A stretch of DNA of 64,000 nt from Acetatifactor sp. (GTDB lineage Bacteria > Bacillota > Clostridia > Lachnospirales > Lachnospiraceae), in assembly GCA_024695935.1 (NCBI GenBank), contig JAILHH010000011.1, positions 1 to 64,000 of the forward strand, written 5' to 3'. The translations under genes and the position numbers were made by a program. Positions 8,746 through 30,343 of the stretch are shown here, piece by piece; within the stretch, counting starts at the first letter, position 1, and each line of letters starts with the position of its first letter. The notes beneath the pieces were generated by a model, which was not told where the DNA came from, did not search any database, and saw only the letters and a program-made list of their open reading frames with translations.

Positions 8746-11700
8746 ATGAAAAGGAAAGTGCTAAGCTTAGTGATGGCTCTGCTCATGGTATTAGGGGTGA
8801 TGCCTGCAATGGAGTCTGAAGCTGCTACAACGGGACAGTACACAAATCCCCTTATGAACGGTGCTGACCCCACGATCGTCAGAGGGGATGACGGATATTT
8901 TTATTCCGGATTCGGAACGGATAACGATATCTACATTAAGAGAAGTGAATCTCTGCTCGGGTTATCCACTGCAGAGAGTCATCTGGTGTGGGACAATCCA
9001 AACACCGGAAACCCTGATAACAACAGCAATTATTACATCTGGGGACCTTATATTTACAGAATAGACGGTGCCTGGTATATCTATTACACATCAAGCACGG
9101 AGAATGATTTCGGATACGGACATCCTTCATGCTATGTGCTCGAGAACACATCTGAAGACCCTTTCAAAGGAGAATGGCATTTAAAGGGATCAAACACAAA
9201 CGTGGATGATTTTGAGGGTAATGCCACAGAGAAAGCGGGCCTTATGAACACCGAGAGCTATGGACTTGCCTGCGGTGTGATCTCCATCGGCGGAGAGATC
9301 TATTTTACCTATACAAAATACGATTATTATGCAAACGAGCCCGGACACACAAAATTTAATGAGTGCCCCACCATCGTAAAAATGGAAAATCCCTGGACTT
9401 TGACAGGTCCTGAGTGTACAGTGGCTCGCCCTACATACGACTGGGAAAAACACGGCGATAACATTGACGAAGGCTGTGCGGTTGTGGAGCACGACGGAAA
9501 GGTTTATTTTGCTTATTCCGTAAGCTCATTTACAAATGACAATTATGGAGTAGGTCTGTCAGTTTGTGACCTTTCAACCGACGTGATGGATGAAAACAAT
9601 TGGAAAAAGAGCACGACACCCATCGTGTCAAGATCCGATGAAAATGCATCCTTCGGACCCGGTTCGCCTCTTTTTGTAAAGAGTCCCGACGGAACAGAGG
9701 ACTGGCTCATCTACCACGGAGGCCCTATCGGCGGTCAGACAAGCACGGACAGAAGAGTTCGCGCCCAGATCATCAACTGGACCGATGACGGACAGATAAG
9801 TCTGGGAATCCCTTCTAATCCTGATACAGTCCTGGATTTCCCTTCAGGTGAGATAAAAAGCGATGTATATGAGGCAGAGGATGCAGACTATGACAATGTG
9901 ACCAAAAAGCTCTTTAACAATACGGCAAAAGCATCCGGATCAGGATATATGCAGTATGACTTGGCCGGTACCGGTTACGTGGAATTTACAGTTGATTCAA
10001 ATTCTGCGGGACTCTATGCCCTTGGATTCAGATACAATAACACAGGTGATACGGCAGAAGCTTTAGTTACTGTAAACGGAGCAGATCAGAGAACTGTATC
10101 CTTTGAAAAAAATGCAAACTTCAAGGTGGATCTGGACATCAAGAAGGTCTACAACGTGATGCTTCAGGAAGGCACAAACACAATACGCGTTAGCGTTCCC
10201 GGACCTTCCACATTAAACCTTGATACAATGATCGTTACAAAGACCGTGAAATACGAAGCCGAGGAGGCTGAACTTTTAAACGGTGCTTTTGTGGAAAATT
10301 CAGATCATGCCGGTGGCATGTACAACGAAAATGCCACGGTTAAATTTAATGTAAACGTTCCCACGACTGGTTATTATGCCGTGAATTTAAGATATGCTGA
10401 CGGCTTTAGTGTATCTGACGGAGCAAAATATGCCACTGTTTTTGTAAACGGCGAGGAAGTAAAGAAAGCGCAGTTTTTCCCCACAGGTTCATGGAATACA
10501 TTCGGTACCAGGATCGACAACCTTTATCTTAATGCCGGAGACAACACTATCGCCTATGTCAATGTAAAGGATAACGGTGCAAACACAGGTGATGTAAATT
10601 ATGATTTCATTACAGTGACAGAGGCCGTGACTCACACATATAAAGCTGAAGCAGCAGACGAAGAGATCACAGAGATTCCTGATGAAACTGTGCCTGAGGA
10701 GCAGCCGGATGCAGAACCTGAAAATACAGAGCCTTCTGAAAGCGAACAGGTTTCTGATGATACAGTGTCTGCAGGTGATGTGGAAAGCGCAGAGCCTGTT
10801 ACTGTGACATACGAGGGAGAGACAGCTGAACTTATAAACGGAGCATTCGTTGAAGGCGGCGACCATGTAGGCGGAATGTATAACGGATTTGCGGCTGTCA
10901 AATTCCATGTAAATGTCGAAGAGGACGGTATATATGCCGTAGAGGTAGGATATGCAAACGGTCATGAAAGTGACTCGAAAAAAACCGCAGTGTACGTAAA
11001 CGGTGAGATGATAAGCGCTGTTGACCTTCCATATACCGGACCATGGAATACATGGAGCAGCTTTTCTTTAAATCTTCCCTTGACTGCCGGAGAGAACATA
11101 ATCTCATTTGTAAATGACAGAGATTCTCTGGGACTTGCAGGCGATGTAAATTATGACCGCCTGACAGTTACTGCACCGAAGATTGGTGATTTAGATTCCC
11201 GCGTGCAGACAGTAAGATATGAGGCAGAGCTTTCGGGATTGTCAAACGGAGCAGTCTCTGAGACAAACAATGCGGGCTTTTCCGCAGTGGGCTTTGCGGG
11301 AGGAATGTATAACAGCAATGCGACGGTAAGCTATAAAGTTTATGCGCCTGCAAAGGGAAAATACAATATTGGCATAGGATATGCAAACGGAAACGGTACA
11401 AAGTACGGACAGTTATATGTTAACGGAGCATTTGTAAAGGAAGCTGAGCTTCCCACATCCGGAGGATGGTCATCATACACATCAGTCACAACAGATGTTG
11501 ATCTGGAAGAGGGCGTAAATTCCATATCACTTGCAAATCTGCAGAATGAAACCGGAAATACCGGAGATGTAAATTACGATTATCTGGAACTTGTTTTACC
11601 GGCTGTTGAGGTTATAAATGATGAACCCGAGCCGGTTGTAACAGAGCCTGAATCAGATCCTGCGGAAGAAGTAAGTGAAGAGACCGGCGATGAGAACGGT

Positions 11701-24494: not shown

Positions 24495-25667
24495 ATGGAA
24501 AGGAATTTGAGATTTGACGAATATGTGGATCGTCGAAACACAAAATCGCTAAAATATGATTTTGCTGCAGAGAGAGGAGCCACAAAAGAAGCTCTTCCCA
24601 TGTGGGTGGCAGACATGGATTTCAAGACCAGCTCATATGTCATCGATGCACTTAAACAGACCGCAGAACATGGGATCTTTGGCTACAGCGAGAGAGATAA
24701 CTCATTTACGGAAGCCCTTGTGGATTGGGAGAAAAGACGCCATGGGTACGATATTAAACCGGAATGGATCATCAATACACCCGGAATCGTGTTTGCCCTT
24801 GCCACAGCGGTTAAAGCCTTTACAAAAGAAGGCGATGCCGTCATCATACAGCAACCCGTTTATTACCCCTTCTCAGAAGTTATAGTGGATAATGACAGGC
24901 GTCTTATCAGTTCCGACTTGGTGCTCAATGAAGAAACCCATTCTTACGAGATAGACTTTGCGGATTTTGAGAAAAAAGTAAAAGAAGAAAAAGTGAAACT
25001 GTTCTTTTTATGCAATCCTCATAATCCCACGGGAAGAGTCTGGACAAAGGAGGAACTGATAAAGCTTGGTGACATCTGCGTGGAAAACGGAGTCATAATA
25101 GTAAGCGATGAGATCCACAGAGATTTTGTTTTTGAGGGTAAACATATTGAATTCACTACCTTGAAAAAAGAGTATGAGTGGCAGACCATCGTATGTACAT
25201 CTCCTTCAAAGACCTTTAACCTGGCAGGGCTTCAGATCAGTAACATCTACATACCAAACCCTGTCCTTAGAAAAAAGGTAAAGTATCAAATCGCCGCAAG
25301 CGGTTACAGTCAGGTGGGAGTTATGGGACTTGTGGCATGCGAGGCCGCATACCGAAACGGTGATGAATGGCTTGAGGGCGTATTAAAATACCTGAAAGAG
25401 AACAGGGAGTATCTGGAGAAGAGGATAACCGGGGAATTTCCAAAGATAAAGTTGATCAGACAGGAGGGAACTTATCTTTCCTGGCTTGACTTTAGAGAGT
25501 ACGGTCAAAGCGGAGCAGAACTAAAAAAACGCCTGCTTACAGAAGCCGGACTTTGGTTTGACGGAGGTGAAATGTTCGGAAAGACCGGAGACGGCTTTGA
25601 GAGAGTAAACATCGCTTGCCCCAGAAAGACCCTTGAGGAAGCACTTAACAGATTAAAGAGATTATAA
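24495..25667 (+). CDS. malY: MalY/PatB-type cystathionine beta-lyase
   Basis: This 390-aa fold-type I PLP enzyme of the MalY/PatB group cleaves C-S beta bonds of cystathionine or S-substituted cysteines to thiol, pyruvate and ammonia. LPMWVADMDF is the group's N-terminal signature, FLCNPHNPTGRVW binds substrate, VSDEIHRDF follows, and PLP Lys is in SPSKTFNLAGLQ. GGAGG overlapping the end of the preceding gene serves ATG 24495, just after its stop. It is the last gene of the sulfur operon. Its final 96 bp plus 26 bp downstream are repeated at 30159-30280, marking the boundary of the inserted island. Confidence 0.9.
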   Translation: MERNLRFDEYVDRRNTKSLKYDFAAERGATKEALPMWVADMDFKTSSYVIDALKQTAEHGIFGYSERDNSFTEALVDWEKRRHGYDIKPEWIINTPGIVFALATAVKAFTKEGDAVIIQQPVYYPFSEVIVDNDRRLISSDLVLNEETHSYEIDFADFEKKVKEEKVKLFFLCNPHNPTGRVWTKEELIKLGDICVENGVIIVSDEIHRDFVFEGKHIEFTTLKKEYEWQTIVCTSPSKTFNLAGLQISNIYIPNPVLRKKVKYQIAASGYSQVGVMGLVACEAAYRNGDEWLEGVLKYLKENREYLEKRITGEFPKIKLIRQEGTYLSWLDFREYGQSGAELKKRLLTEAGLWFDGGEMFGKTGDGFERVNIACPRKTLEEALNRLKRL

Positions 25668-25693
25668 ATTGCACCGCATGGTGTACATAATAT
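25572..25693 (+). repeat. 122-bp direct repeat, left copy (3' end of malY)
   Basis: This stretch holds the last 31 malY codons, the stop and 26 bp downstream. The same sequence occurs in the same orientation at 30159-30280, with one mismatch (G25676 versus A30263). The copies are offset by 4587 bp and flank the RiPP island. Confidence 0.97.
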
Positions 25694-25722
25694 GAATAAA
25701 AGAGCATAAATATCGGATTTGA

Positions 25723-25914
25723 AAAAATCTGAGTTTATTTATAGGACGTGATACGTTTTATACCGACTGCAGAGTGCAGAACGATATTTCCGGCTATACA
25801 GAGAAGAGGGTGATATTCCATAGTGGAGAGAAAAAACCTTTATCTATAGAAATAATGCCAGAAGAAGATATCCGGTATTGTTTTTTGGCATATCGACAAT
25901 TTCTTGTAGCATAG
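25723..25914 (+). pseudogene. Possible gene remnant at the island edge
   Basis: An open frame without a convincing start codon runs from 25723 to TAG 25912-25914. Its translation is protein-like and well mixed (for example GRDTFYTDCRVQND and LSIEIMPEEDIRY), but I recognise no family. It starts just inside the left repeat and is on the opposite strand from the RiPP genes. It may be the truncated tail of a gene that arrived with or was cut by the island, or simply a chance frame of 63 codons. Confidence 0.25.
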
Positions 25915-25932
25915 ATCAGGGTATTTCGGAAA

Positions 25933-25970
25933 AACAAAGTGCGTAAAAGTGGTCTTTTACGTACTTTGTT
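25933..25970 (-). terminator. Terminator of the RiPP operon
   Basis: A 16-bp stem with one G-T pair and a 4-nt loop spans 25934-25969. On the minus strand its first arm includes the last codons and stop of the second radical SAM gene, and a T run follows. It marks the end of the minus-strand operon. Confidence 0.85.
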
Positions 25971-26970
25971 TATTAACTTTACTCCTTGCCCAACTTGTTC
26001 TACACGCATATGGATCTGATAGTAAATAATTGCCTTTTATGTTATCTACAATACCAGAACACCTTATACAATATTTGTTATTCTTACATTTATAACACTC
26101 GGTTAAATCTCTCCATGTTGTATTTCTTATTTTTTTCAAAAAATCGCAATTCCATATATCTGCTATTTTATCTTCTGTTATGTTTCCTATTTTTTTAAAC
26201 CATAAATTGCAAGGATAAACATCTCCATAGGAATCTATAAATAAACTGTAATGTAGTTCGCAACATATTGAATCTGTAGATAGTTTTTCCTTACTATATA
26301 AAGCACCAAACCTTATTTCATCCAAACATCTTATATTTCTACATAATTGTTTATCGGTCATTTTAAGGTTTCTAATCGATTCATCGCCACTAACAGATGG
26401 AAAAAGTCCTTCTGTTGCCAAGAATAAAATGTTATTATCGGTGCAGAATTTACGAATATTATCAACTGCATCAGCATTATCTTTCATAAGCACCGTTTTA
26501 ATCTCTGTTTGAATGTCTGTAGTGGCTATTTTCTTTATGGTATCCATTACAACAGTTGCAGAATTGTTTGTTTGAGTAATTTTATCATTTACTTCATTGT
26601 CTGTTGAAAATAATGTTGTACTTATAATTTCAACATACAATGATTCCAAATCGTGTATCATTTCATCGGAAATCAAAGAAACATTTGTTAATAAACTAAC
26701 TTTAAATTTTAGTTCTCGAGCATAGCGAATGATTTCCATAATATCTTTACGCATAAATATTTCGCCACCCGTAAATTGTAGCTCATAAACTCCAAAATCC
26801 CTTAATTCATCTATTATTTCCTTAAGTTTTTGTGTACTAAGACCAGGGTTTGTGTGTTGTTCTAAAAAACAGTGTATACACTTAAAATTGCATAGAGTCG
26901 TCAATTCTATAATGGCTCTATACATATAATTATTTTTGCTATATAGACTTTTTATATTTATCTCTTCCAT
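25957..26970 (-). CDS. Radical SAM/SPASM peptide-modifying enzyme (second)
   Basis: This 337-aa radical SAM protein has the cluster motif CNFKCIHC (Cys27, 31, 34), and YELQFTGGE contributes SAM binding. The C-terminal SPASM-type domain shows CC near residue 240, then YPCNLW, and CYKC...YCIRCSG with a final Cys in DPYACR. These would hold auxiliary iron-sulfur clusters. Such enzymes install C-S or C-C crosslinks in ribosomal peptides. It is a paralogue of the other radical SAM protein (27246-28289). Its start overlaps the PqqD-like gene by 32 bp, so expression is coupled. The sequence is clearly AT-richer than the neighbouring sulfur operon. Confidence 0.88.
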   Translation of the reverse strand: MEEINIKSLYSKNNYMYRAIIELTTLCNFKCIHCFLEQHTNPGLSTQKLKEIIDELRDFGVYELQFTGGEIFMRKDIMEIIRYARELKFKVSLLTNVSLISDEMIHDLESLYVEIISTTLFSTDNEVNDKITQTNNSATVVMDTIKKIATTDIQTEIKTVLMKDNADAVDNIRKFCTDNNILFLATEGLFPSVSGDESIRNLKMTDKQLCRNIRCLDEIRFGALYSKEKLSTDSICCELHYSLFIDSYGDVYPCNLWFKKIGNITEDKIADIWNCDFLKKIRNTTWRDLTECYKCKNNKYCIRCSGIVDNIKGNYLLSDPYACRTSWARSKVNKQST

Positions 26971-27241
26971 TTTTTGTGATTACTCCAATTTCAAATAAAG
27001 AATCTATAAATTCCGAAATATCGTGTTCTATGTCTTCGCTATTTATACAATAATACGTAGCAACAGTATCAATCAAACTATTTAAAGATATCTCTTTGTG
27101 TTGAGAAATTATATTCCACACAACTAATTCGGTATCCTCTAGCGCATAATATTTTTTTTCTTTTATGTTATATACAAACCCAAAATGTTGATCGGGCAAA
27201 ATTTGCCATGAAATATGAGTCGCAAATGCTATATTATACAT
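26939..27241 (-). CDS. PqqD-like RiPP recognition element protein
   Basis: This 100-aa protein fits the PqqD fold that binds RiPP leader peptides and delivers them to the modifying enzyme. HFGFVYNIKEKKYYALEDTE forms the beta-hairpin region and is followed by VVWNIISQ. The helical half has INSEDIEHDISEFIDSLFEIGVI. It sits between the two radical SAM genes and overlaps the second. The leader of the candidate precursor carries a YxxP motif like that bound by related elements in lasso peptide pathways. No other domain is fused. Confidence 0.8.
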   Translation of the reverse strand: MYNIAFATHISWQILPDQHFGFVYNIKEKKYYALEDTELVVWNIISQHKEISLNSLIDTVATYYCINSEDIEHDISEFIDSLFEIGVITKNGRDKYKKSI

Positions 27242-27245
27242 AGGT

Positions 27246-28289
27246 TCAATATGTCTCCTTTGCTTTTACTGGTATATAATTATTCTTTCTTATTTCAGCC
27301 AGCAAACAAGTTTCTGTACAGTTTTCTAAATAATTGTTGCCTTTAATGTAGGACATTGCCCCGCATCTTACACAAAATTCCCTCTTATCACATTTAACAC
27401 AGCCATCACAGTCTTTCCAACAGTAGCGCTGAATTCTTTTTAGGATTTCAGATTTTTCCCATATATCTATCAGAGATACTTCATATATATTTGCAACGCT
27501 TTCTCTATATTTAGCACACGGAATAACATCTCCATTAGAAGTAATGTATATTGAAGTCATGTACTCGGGACAAAGTCTATTAGTCACAGGATTATTGATA
27601 GGTAGTGCCCTTCCGGTAGATTTATCATGCAAATATACTGCATGGCAATACTCTGAAAACGATAATTGTTCCTCTTTTGGAAGTTTCATATTGCCATGAA
27701 TATCCGAATAAATCTGTACGTTTATTGTGCATCTAAACCCTAGCGTACGATAATAATCAACTATATTGTCCAATTCGGCATAATTACTTTTGATAGCCCA
27801 TATTTTTATTAATACGTCAACTCCTAGATCTTTCAACAGTTTTAAATTCTGTATAGATTTTTCCCATGCACCAGGAGAATTTACAAAACAATCATGTACA
27901 CTGCTATTAGTGGAAAACAATGTTGTTTCAACATTATTAATTCCGTATTTTTTTATACAAGCTATTACATTTGGTTCTAAATTTGACATATTTGACAACA
28001 AGGTAATATTCATGTATCTTTCTCTTGCATATCTAATTATTTTCTCTAAGTGTGGACTTGTTGTTACTTCTCCGCCTGATAAGCGAAGTTCATATGCCCC
28101 AAGTTTTCTCGCATCATCTATTATTTCATATATTTTATTAATATCCATATCTACTTTTTTATTATCCAAGTAACAATGTTTACAATGCCAATTACATTGG
28201 TTAACTATTTCGATTGTTACCGTTTTCAATAGACGATTTTTTTCATAAATTTCTTCAAGTTCATTTATATTCATTATTACTTTGACCAA
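27246..28289 (-). CDS. Radical SAM/SPASM peptide-modifying enzyme (first)
   Basis: This 347-aa radical SAM enzyme carries CNWHCKHC (Cys32, 36, 39), YELRLSGGE, and a SPASM-like C-terminus with IPCAKYR, then CDGCVKC, FCVRCGA and a final C-x3-C pair. It shares architecture with the second enzyme, including the order of auxiliary Cys, so the pair probably arose by duplication. Two radical SAM proteins could act in turn or as a heterodimer, as in thuricin CD biosynthesis. The start is uncertain: TTG 28289 (MVKVIMNIN) or ATG 28274. It lies 10 nt after the exporter gene. Confidence 0.88.
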   Translation of the reverse strand: MVKVIMNINELEEIYEKNRLLKTVTIEIVNQCNWHCKHCYLDNKKVDMDINKIYEIIDDARKLGAYELRLSGGEVTTSPHLEKIIRYARERYMNITLLSNMSNLEPNVIACIKKYGINNVETTLFSTNSSVHDCFVNSPGAWEKSIQNLKLLKDLGVDVLIKIWAIKSNYAELDNIVDYYRTLGFRCTINVQIYSDIHGNMKLPKEEQLSFSEYCHAVYLHDKSTGRALPINNPVTNRLCPEYMTSIYITSNGDVIPCAKYRESVANIYEVSLIDIWEKSEILKRIQRYCWKDCDGCVKCDKREFCVRCGAMSYIKGNNYLENCTETCLLAEIRKNNYIPVKAKETY

Positions 28290-28299
28290 TCTCTAAAAA

Positions 28300-29844
28300 T
28301 CAGCGCGAAATCACTATAGTTTCATCGAATGCTTTTTCATATTCTTCAACATTATGAGCGATAATCAGCATCATTCTATCTATACTATCCATATGTTTCA
28401 TAAAGTGAGCTATTGATATATTATTCATTGCCGAAAAAGGCTCATCCATCATTATTATTCTTTTCTCACTGCATAATGCTCTAAGAAATGCGATGACTTG
28501 CTTTTCTCCGCCGCTTAAGTTTTCTGTATTTGTATTTTGTTTGATATTATCCAAGAGTTCTTTAGGGAAAAAAGATTCATACCGCTCAAGGTTATTGCTG
28601 TCATATGCATTAAAAATCGTAACATTATCAACGTAAGAGGCATTAAAAATAACTGGATTTTGTGGCACATAGCAAATATCTTCTGAAATATCAATATCAT
28701 TTATACCATTATATTCAATAGTACCGGAATCTGCCTTTTCAAATTGCATTAAGAGCCTCAAAAATACACTTTTTCCTACACCATTCTCTCCTGTAATTAA
28801 ATACTTCTTAGGATATTCAAATGACGTTTGTGGCAACATTATTTCTGTTTGCTTATATCTCTTTGTTAATTGTGTGGTCGTTATATTTTGAATATTAAAA
28901 CTATCACTCTTATTAACAATGCTATTCCCTATAATATTCAAAATCTTTTCCTGAACTTTTTTCACAGAATGGACTTTTCCTAAACATACATTTAATTCAT
29001 AAATAGGTTCCATAAATCTTGTGCTATATGTAAAAGCAATAGTCGCCATACCAACCGTGATTTTGCTTCTTAGTAATAAAATTGCAACCACAACAAAAGT
29101 AATAACAGAAACAAATTCTACTGAACCACCATTAATTACCATGGCAAAACTATTGGTTTTTCTGAAATTCATATTATGTGCAAAAACGTTCTCTATTTTT
29201 TTACTATGAATCTCTATTAACTTGTTTTTGCTTCTGTGATCTAGAATATCATGGGCTTCAAAAATTTTTCCTATGTCAAAAGTATATTTTCCAACAACAT
29301 CCATATATCGTTTATTTTTGATGGCTAAATCTTTTGCCGTTAACTTTGGTATAAACACCACTATTAATGAAAATAAAAATATCACTGCCGCAATATAGTA
29401 ATTTACAAATACTATAAGAGAGACTCCAAATGCACCGATAAGTAATAATGATCTGTATATTGACAATAGTGGGCTCAGATAATTTTGACACATTTCTGTG
29501 ATATCATTAGCTTGCATTGATATATATTCTTCAGAACTAAATTCATGATATTTTTCAAAATCCCGTGAAATTATAGATTGAAAAAAATCTTTTTTGATTG
29601 CTTCTTCAAATTTTATGCGTCTATAATCAGCAATCCGATTTGAAAAAAACGACACTAATAAATAAATACTAAACGACAAAACATAAAGAATTGCCAATTT
29701 TACTATGTATGCCATTCCATTTTGAAAATTATCAACTAACCAGCCGGGAAACAGTAAAATAACTGATGTTATAACTGCTTCACTTAAACTAAAGATTATG
29801 CTAAGTATTATGTATCCTTTGATAGTACTTAAGTATTTTTTCAT
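28300..29844 (-). CDS. ABC exporter (fused membrane and ATPase domains)
   Basis: This 514-aa half-transporter has six hydrophobic helices in residues 1 to about 290 and a nucleotide-binding domain after about 320. Walker A GENGVGKS is near 351, the signature LSGGEKQ near 442, and Walker B IIMMDEP follows. The usual ATPase lobe looks compact. No N-terminal C39 peptidase domain is present, so leader cleavage, if any, needs another protease. It is the first enzyme gene after the precursor and should export the modified peptide, possibly also giving self-protection. Confidence 0.88.
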   Translation of the reverse strand: MKKYLSTIKGYIILSIIFSLSEAVITSVILLFPGWLVDNFQNGMAYIVKLAILYVLSFSIYLLVSFFSNRIADYRRIKFEEAIKKDFFQSIISRDFEKYHEFSSEEYISMQANDITEMCQNYLSPLLSIYRSLLLIGAFGVSLIVFVNYYIAAVIFLFSLIVVFIPKLTAKDLAIKNKRYMDVVGKYTFDIGKIFEAHDILDHRSKNKLIEIHSKKIENVFAHNMNFRKTNSFAMVINGGSVEFVSVITFVVVAILLLRSKITVGMATIAFTYSTRFMEPIYELNVCLGKVHSVKKVQEKILNIIGNSIVNKSDSFNIQNITTTQLTKRYKQTEIMLPQTSFEYPKKYLITGENGVGKSVFLRLLMQFEKADSGTIEYNGINDIDISEDICYVPQNPVIFNASYVDNVTIFNAYDSNNLERYESFFPKELLDNIKQNTNTENLSGGEKQVIAFLRALCSEKRIIMMDEPFSAMNNISIAHFMKHMDSIDRMMLIIAHNVEEYEKAFDETIVISR

Positions 29845-29894
29845 TAGAGTTCACCTTGATTTTCGCTTGGTTTGCATTATTGTCTATTCATAAT

Positions 29895-29926
29895 AAATGA
29901 GGGCTGTAGCATAACAGCCCTCATTT
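29895..29926 (-). terminator. Strong hairpin between precursor and exporter genes
   Basis: A perfect 13-bp stem (29895-29907 with 29914-29926) closes a 6-nt loop. On the minus strand it follows the precursor stop and is followed by TTTATTATG. It probably works as a partial terminator or RNA end, keeping precursor mRNA in excess of the enzyme mRNA. Confidence 0.75.
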
Positions 29927-29971
29927 GTGAATAAGAACACTCTTATCTTTTTTCTTAAAGTTCAAAACAAA

Positions 29972-30067
29972 TTAATTTGTGCCACTACAATTCGTGTGCT
30001 TGGCCATTTCTTTTACAATATGAACTTTAACTTCTTTAACTTCAGGTTTCTTATATGTGCTATCCAT
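29972..30067 (-). CDS. RiPP precursor peptide (31 aa)
   Basis: A 31-codon frame directly upstream of the exporter starts at ATG 30067, with AAAGGAGGGGG just ahead. The N-terminal half is charged and holds YKKPEV at residues 5-10, resembling the YxxPx(L/V) leader motif bound by PqqD-like elements. The C-terminal end, KHTNCSGTN, with a single Cys27, is the likely core. Position, size, dedicated promoter and following hairpin all fit a precursor. With one Cys, a thioether to a nearby Thr or Asn, or a Cys-free crosslink through Tyr, His or Lys, are both possible. I cannot assign it to a named RiPP class. Confidence 0.78.
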   Translation of the reverse strand: MDSTYKKPEVKEVKVHIVKEMAKHTNCSGTN

Positions 30068-30112
30068 TACGATCCCCCTCCTTTCATACGTTATTGCTTT
30101 AACCCATGAAAT

Positions 30113-30141
30113 AATATATCATTTTTAGCTCTCTGATTCAA
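30113..30141 (-). promoter_or_regulatory. Sigma-A promoter of the RiPP operon
   Basis: Read on the minus strand, TTGAAT (30136-30141), a 17-nt spacer and TATATT (30113-30118) give a start near 30106 and a leader of about 40 nt before the precursor. It lies just inside the right repeat. Confidence 0.75.
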
Positions 30142-30158
30142 TATTTTTTTTCATTAAG

Positions 30159-30280
30159 ATGTTCGGAAAGACCGGAGACGGCTTTGAGAGAGTAAACATC
30201 GCTTGCCCCAGAAAGACCCTTGAGGAAGCACTTAACAGATTAAAGAGATTATAAATTGCACCACATGGTGTACATAATAT
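30159..30280 (+). repeat. 122-bp direct repeat, right copy (malY 3' fragment)
   Basis: This copy encodes only the last 31 residues and stop of MalY plus 26 bp, identical to 25572-25693 except one base. It is followed by a good terminator, so this side probably keeps the original downstream sequence of malY. The fragment itself has no ribosome site. Confidence 0.97.
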
Positions 30281-30284
30281 AAAC

Positions 30285-30343
30285 AAAAAGGGCGTCGCTT
30301 TAGATGATGATCAGTCCACATCTTCATGCGACAGCCCTTTTTT
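30285..30343 (+). terminator. Probable original terminator of the sulfur operon
   Basis: GGGC and TCGC (30290-30298) pair with GCGA and GCCC (30328-30337) across a small internal loop. An inner ATGA-GAT/ATC-TCAT stem and a T run to 30343 follow. It stands after the right malY fragment. Confidence 0.8.

Follow-up and report, generated by a model that had tools for sequence, protein, structure and literature searches.

The window analysed here is a 64,000-nucleotide stretch of an Acetatifactor sp. genome (assembly GCA_024695935.1, contig JAILHH010000011.1), and all coordinates are positions within it. The interval 25694-30158 carries five close-packed genes on the minus strand, ~4.5 kb in total, for what is very probably a short ribosomally synthesized and post-translationally modified peptide (RiPP). 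We favour, with a probability of roughly 0.55, the reading of this cassette as a horizontally acquired, tail-less operon related to the SSH RaS-RiPPs. A PqqD-like protein would present the leader of a short precursor to a pair of radical S-adenosylmethionine (radical SAM, rSAM) enzymes, and the pair would install one small ring at Cys-Ser-Gly. An initial annotation had described the five genes on one strand; all are present and Pfam agrees with each family assignment:

29972 to 30067, minus strand: precursor peptide MDSTYKKPEVKEVKVHIVKEMAKHTNCSGTN, 31 amino acids, with a strong ribosome-binding site.
28300 to 29844, minus strand: ATP-binding cassette (ABC) exporter P0002, 514 amino acids, with membrane and ATPase domains and without a C39 peptidase.
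27246 to 28274, minus strand: rSAM1 (P0003), radical SAM/SPASM enzyme, 342 amino acids, with an alternative TTG start at 28289.
26939 to 27241, minus strand: PqqD-like free RiPP recognition element (RRE; P0004), 100 amino acids.
25957 to 26970, minus strand: rSAM2 (P0005), radical SAM/SPASM enzyme, 337 amino acids.

The exporter contains the Pfam domains ABC_membrane and ABC_tran, and Pfam detects no C39 peptidase domain on it. Radical_SAM and SPASM domains are present in both enzymes, and the PqqD match of P0004 exceeds the gathering score. None of the NCBIfam models reaches its cutoff for any cassette protein, hence no characterised RiPP family claims the enzymes. The five genes include no protease, regulator or immunity gene. 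The earlier description is thus supported: a cluster of the crosslinked-RiPP type which lacks a protease and in which two paralogous radical SAM/SPASM enzymes accompany a free recognition protein and a precursor with a single Cys in its core.

The 31-residue precursor proposed in the initial annotation also stands. Open reading frames of 20-60 amino acids combining a [YF]xKP leader with a CSG core occur once in the window and not at all in 20 shuffled windows. In RUG055, a rumen Clostridiales assembly, the corresponding precursor MYKKPVLKEVKVREVNAAVKHTNCSGKN is identical to that of the window at 18 of 27 residues, and it adjoins an exporter, an rSAM2 and a PqqD protein which share 52%, 49% and 42% identity with those of the window. 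The two precursor genes differ at 33 nucleotides, distributed as 4/7/22 over codon positions 1/2/3, with 14 synonymous and 9 non-synonymous codons. Because the precursor is conserved beside homologous enzymes and its differences to RUG055 are mostly third-position, this pattern of substitution identifies it as a real coding gene. Four more distant clusters, two from the same family (L021 and L022), one from the same order (L052) and one on a Macrococcoides bohemicum plasmid (L048), likewise comprise a PqqD protein, two rSAM enzymes, an exporter and a precursor (MKKYEKPVIKKAEAKKTGTVVETQCRCSGSSTHIVIAQ, MKSNEQKRPYVKPSITKSAPVEVRNSKSAACSGCSTHKAQTK, MSYSKPIVNISKAIRITHTMKQTNCSGSSTHSMSAN and MKKEFKKPTIIVKPTDNVIMANKSAQCSGSSSHIIIKKSE, respectively); the precursors of L021 and L022 contain a second Cys. 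The frame is therefore conserved next to homologous enzyme sets in five other clusters, and all six clusters have the PqqD protein, the radical SAM/SPASM enzyme(s), a C39-less exporter and a short precursor within ~250 bp. Only Met1, K7, P8, C27, S28 and G29 (window numbering) are invariant across the six precursors. As the sole invariant core residues, C, S and G are those which a common modification must use.

The link to a known group comes from the Macrococcoides plasmid, which has the same gene set and a longer core. Its precursor matches the NCBIfam model NF050043, 'SSH motif RaS-RiPP peptide', with 86.4 bits (cutoff 45), and the earlier claim of an undescribed system was thus too strong. 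A 2026 review places SSH among sixteen streptococcal RaS-RiPP subfamilies, lists it for S. equi zooepidemicus, S. mitis and S. parasanguinis and gives its function as not characterised (PMC13361665). Our comparison with the streptococcal loci rests on the NCBIfam model and this review. The L021, L022 and L052 precursors match NF050043 weakly. The window precursor gives no match up to E 1 and is missed by a whole-genome scan with the model, and the RUG055 precursor gives no match either, because both end two residues after CSG (CSGTN in the window, CSGKN in RUG055); an SS[ST]H-type tail is absent from both cores. A profile built from four SSxH-tailed precursors retrieves the window precursor as the single match in its 2.64-Mb genome, at a weak E of 0.12, and the RUG055 precursor as the single match in its own (E 0.007). 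Searching the whole family with the SSH precursor model returned no match, which is uninformative since genomes with relatives give only E 0.003-0.007. The window enzymes share 28-33% identity with the Macrococcoides enzyme pair. Judged by gene set and homology, the window cluster is a tail-less relative of SSH clusters: it belongs to this clan and is not a member by the defining motif.

The cassette appears to have been inserted. Its boundaries coincide exactly with two direct repeats:

25572 to 25701, plus strand: left direct repeat, 130 bp, comprising the last codons of an aminotransferase gene and sequence downstream.
30159 to 30288, plus strand: right direct repeat, 130 bp, a displaced duplicate of the aminotransferase 3′ end.

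The two copies are 98% identical, with three mismatches, and no third copy occurs elsewhere in the genome; the aminotransferase gene ending in the left copy is intact. Because it is bounded by two copies of the neighbouring aminotransferase 3′ end, the cassette looks inserted, and horizontally acquired. Its guanine-plus-cytosine (GC) content is 30.3%, compared with 43.5% for the remainder of the window, where same-size stretches are always at least 40%. As no integrase gene lies inside the cassette, we can only infer the mechanism: the repeat geometry would fit integration at a gene 3′ end, or a single crossover of a circle bearing that end. An empty site could not be demonstrated in the sister genome G156, in which the aminotransferase matches by its first half only and the right flank is absent. 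Repeat-flanked, low in GC and devoid of an integrase, the cassette may be mobilisable in cis or have been inserted by crossover.

CX3CX2C, GGE and the full set of seven SPASM cysteines (CX12GX4C...CX2CX5CX2CX18C) are present in both enzymes, and this SPASM pattern resembles that reported for the sactisynthase RumMC2 (PMC8188230). Among solved structures, the enzyme profile comes closest to another sactisynthase, SkfB (2e-30). A PapB-type model matches one relative with E 4.7e-12, far below its cutoff, and, compared with ranthipeptide cores, the precursor has a single Cys and no repeated Cys motif. That the window enzymes stem from a recent duplication was rejected: they share 29% identity, and a clade of the two is rejected by the approximately unbiased (AU) test (p 0.022). 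From this divergence, the enzyme pairs are old.

The leader had been called lasso-like for its YxxP motif, and the PqqD-like protein supports this description. Among NCBIfam models, the Bacillota lasso chaperone NF033536 matches it best (2.4e-8, below cutoff), and its AlphaFold2 model, with a predicted local distance difference test (pLDDT) score of 81.8, has as top matches TbiB1 bound to lasso leaders, followed by PqqD. By analogy, the Y-x-K-P leader segment is likely the ligand of the PqqD protein.

What the DNA itself shows is five genes that are conserved together, a family of precursors and repeats on either flank; the steps that follow are inferred from these. The free, lasso-B1-like RRE would take up the YKKPEV segment of the leader as an additional strand and hand the precursor to both radical SAM/SPASM enzymes, acting as a pair. 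TrnC and TrnD are two rSAM enzymes that work as one complex (PMC12093266), and the two window enzymes may do the same. The pair would form one small thioether ring within Cys27-Ser28-Gly29, with a mass change of -2 Da. The most likely bond would join the Cys sulfur to the alpha-carbon of Gly29, with one residue between them as in suisactin, or to that of Ser28, as happens in the thiomorpholine of enteropeptin; a thioether of this kind is the most economical proposal, given a single conserved Cys and a core whose only invariant residues are CSG. Of the two enzymes, rSAM2 more probably acts as the catalyst, with rSAM1 as its partner or as a second modifier. The modified peptide would then leave via the ABC transporter, and a housekeeping protease whose gene lies elsewhere would trim it. 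A narrow-spectrum antibacterial or a signalling peptide is the likely role.

Several observations weigh against this scheme. The SkfB match is at superfamily level, and because similar scores come from NCBIfam maturase models for many different reactions, the bond type is not fixed by sequence. The AlphaFold model of rSAM2 is poor (pLDDT 57) and was not used. The sorting of the enzymes into two sets of orthologues, those in first position (A) and those near the exporter (B), which fall on opposite sides of a branch in the best tree, is weakly supported (28/73, 54/70). CSG could be conserved instead for export, cleavage or target binding, and RUG055, a metagenome assembly, may represent a dying cluster. 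The product might also be something other than a thioether, such as a C-C or ether crosslink, an epimerisation or a dehydrogenation, with the Cys free, in a disulfide or used by another step; we consider this doubtful. Lys-Trp, ether, Arg-Tyr, beta-thioether and alpha-thioether links are all products of radical SAM/SPASM enzymes with this architecture (PMC13361665), and the window core offers an aromatic-x-Asn triplet, so that a concrete version would be a three-residue His-Thr-Asn cyclophane at H24-T25-N26. However, neither H24 nor T25 is conserved (Q/S/T and T/A/C occur at the homologous positions), and within the core only C, S and G are invariant. Still less probable, indeed highly improbable, is a cofactor or non-peptide pathway of the PQQ or mycofactocin type, with the peptide as a scaffold for a small molecule. 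These cofactors are also built by PqqD and rSAM/SPASM pairs, and both window enzymes score against the corresponding maturase models, but far under the cutoffs. PQQ and mycofactocin precursors use Glu-Tyr or Val-Tyr, which the window core lacks; furthermore, every cluster has an exporter and other tailoring enzymes are absent.

A division of labour between the two enzymes is a tentative alternative, though one we take somewhat more seriously than a non-thioether product. The A enzyme (rSAM2 in the window) would modify CSG and the B enzyme (rSAM1) the SSxH tail, B having drifted or been deleted in the tail-less branch. The two tail-less clusters are indeed those in which the presumed B enzyme either has the longest branch or is wrecked. 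rSAM1 of the window is the fast-evolving one (branch 2.42). In RUG055 (L026:5472-5730), only residues 6-65 and ~315-333 of rSAM1 are left, joined by an out-of-frame deletion, and the precursor, RRE, rSAM2 and exporter frames stay open. Such fast evolution or destruction of the partner enzyme in the two tail-less clusters suggests, within one lineage only, that it serves the lost tail. The placement of A and B enzymes on either side of one branch and the rejection of a recent duplication point the same way. Yet the two clusters are sisters and hence count as one event, the A/B split is poorly supported, and window rSAM1 retains all Fe-S ligands. Moreover, in the G314 cluster an in-frame TAG sits in the A enzyme, though the precursor is tailed. 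Together with the RUG055 deletion and half an rSAM gene in the G561 cluster, this TAG codon might indicate that the window cassette, which has no protease, regulator or immunity gene, is itself a decaying remnant whose product is no longer made. We regard such decay as improbable: the five frames of the window are open, all catalytic motifs, the ribosome-binding site, hairpin and terminator are present, and the precursor substitutions relative to RUG055 are of the coding type.

The reading as a tail-less SSH-related operon can be carried further, into a proposal that we advance with low confidence. The cassette could be a minimal single-Cys branch which has lost the SSH tail and in which a new modification, a small ring, is now introduced at Cys-Ser-Gly by the two enzymes, the tailed ancestor having had separable enzyme sites. 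If this is true, the pathway has been dissected in nature by the loss of the tail and of an enzyme. More generally, a tail-less precursor combined with an enzyme degraded in a close relative offers a natural experiment on the keeping of two paralogous radical enzymes. For SSH, listed without a characterised function, the comparison of tail-less and tailed clusters leaves Cys-Ser-Gly as the narrowed-down site of modification. The clan now reaches from a Staphylococcaceae plasmid into Clostridia, those of the rumen among them, and is seen to move in the form of a gene cassette.

The clan is rare and its distribution patchy, which agrees with horizontal spread. Searching 397 genomes of the family with P0003 yielded three CSG-precursor clusters besides the window, an order search over 392 genomes added G411, and class and phylum draws (391 and 398 genomes) yielded no further one. 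Scans of genome contigs gave no match with rSAM1 alone, and RUG055 as the only close match with the rSAM2 pair. Viral contigs and phages contained distant rSAM proteins only, and a plasmid DNA search with the whole cassette gave no match.

Three signals for expression were located on the minus strand:

30113 to 30141, minus strand: candidate operon promoter TTGAAT-17-TATATT with an extended -10, a consensus match not above shuffled expectation.
29895 to 29926, minus strand: 13-bp RNA hairpin between precursor and exporter (z -4.5).
25932 to 25971, minus strand: palindromic intrinsic terminator at the operon end (z -6.7), overlapping the rSAM2 stop.

A single promoter, as first annotated, is plausible at this site, but promoter-like matches in the region are no commoner than in shuffles. 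The hairpin 3′ of the precursor gene would keep precursor transcripts in excess of enzyme transcripts; at the equivalent site, RUG055 has a hairpin of unrelated sequence which is stronger (z -6.3). The hairpin, the terminator, the 130-bp repeats and the GC drop are features beyond the initial annotation.

Other loci were met in these searches. Two helix-turn-helix proteins lie directly upstream of the RUG055 cluster (L023:6997-8871); they are possibly RRNPP-like and not shown to be Rgg. A 64-nt palindromic repeat, resembling a miniature inverted-repeat transposable element, occurs three times flanking and following that cluster (L023:3210-3273, 8840-8903 and 11327-11390). Directly downstream of the G314-cluster exporter, an M16 peptidase (L022:807-2039), absent from the window, is a candidate leader protease. 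Matches on E. coli, Salmonella and Photobacterium plasmids were set aside as another RiPP type, with an RRE-fused rSAM, a recombinase and a ...GRPCNPP... precursor. This type occurs on conjugative plasmids of these three genera (L051:5398-7026, L049, L050) and in a Bacillota genome (L089:8685-8801), with precursors such as MSYSKPTVLAKSSTYMAQCRPNSKPSGRPCNPPGPSGR; on the E. coli and Photobacterium plasmids, the recombinase gene stands just before the precursor. The plasmid match of the exporter in Clostridiaceae 14S0207 was rejected, being surrounded by non-RiPP genes. In three Clostridia (L025, L064, L067), read by eye, an RRE-fused rSAM is followed by a UvrA-like ATPase of 775-777 amino acids and a second rSAM of 346-353, with MKYVKPVVLKSGIVRSAKCGSGPCGRPCDNKAG as a precursor candidate in L064. 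At L053:5773-7325, a PqqD protein, an rSAM and the precursor MSYKKPEIKTIEVSITVNSNADEASSCKGGHCVKSIYENDHP make up a third RiPP type, which looks related and shares the leader motif. Lastly, L024:5307-10313 holds a PqqD protein, a single rSAM and two ABC genes beside insertion sequence elements, and no CSG precursor was found there.

The cassette shares features with several known systems. In thuricin CD (TrnC/TrnD) and thuricin Z (ThzC/ThzD), two rSAM/SPASM enzymes and an ABC transporter occur together as in the window, whereas the thuricin peptides have several Cys and three thioethers each (PMC12093266) and the window has one Cys and a separate PqqD-type RRE. SkfA contains a single thioether (PMC8326336). 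Within the group of SkfA/SkfB and the subtilosin enzyme AlbA, SkfB is the closest solved relative by sequence profile; unlike the window enzymes, it has an RRE fused at its N-terminus and is the one maturase, and the profile scores lie far under the family cutoffs. The RRE fold and the Y-x-K-P leader are also those of lasso systems with their B1/PqqD chaperones; however, P0004 stays below the NF033536 cutoff and the five genes include neither a B2 protease nor an asparagine-synthetase-like cyclase. The Cys rings of suisactin (QMP) and enteropeptin (KGR) are small, spanning one residue or none (PMC13361665), the geometry proposed here for C-S-G. Their precursors and motifs are different, and the likeness drawn here concerns the proposed ring geometry. 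From the SSH clusters, the cassette differs in the missing SSxH tail of its precursor, in gene order and in having no Rgg-type regulator, with no Rgg/SHP regulator among the genes inside it. With the Macrococcoides locus, it shares the [YF]xKP leader, the CSG core and the set of PqqD protein, two rSAM/SPASM enzymes and C39-less ABC exporter.

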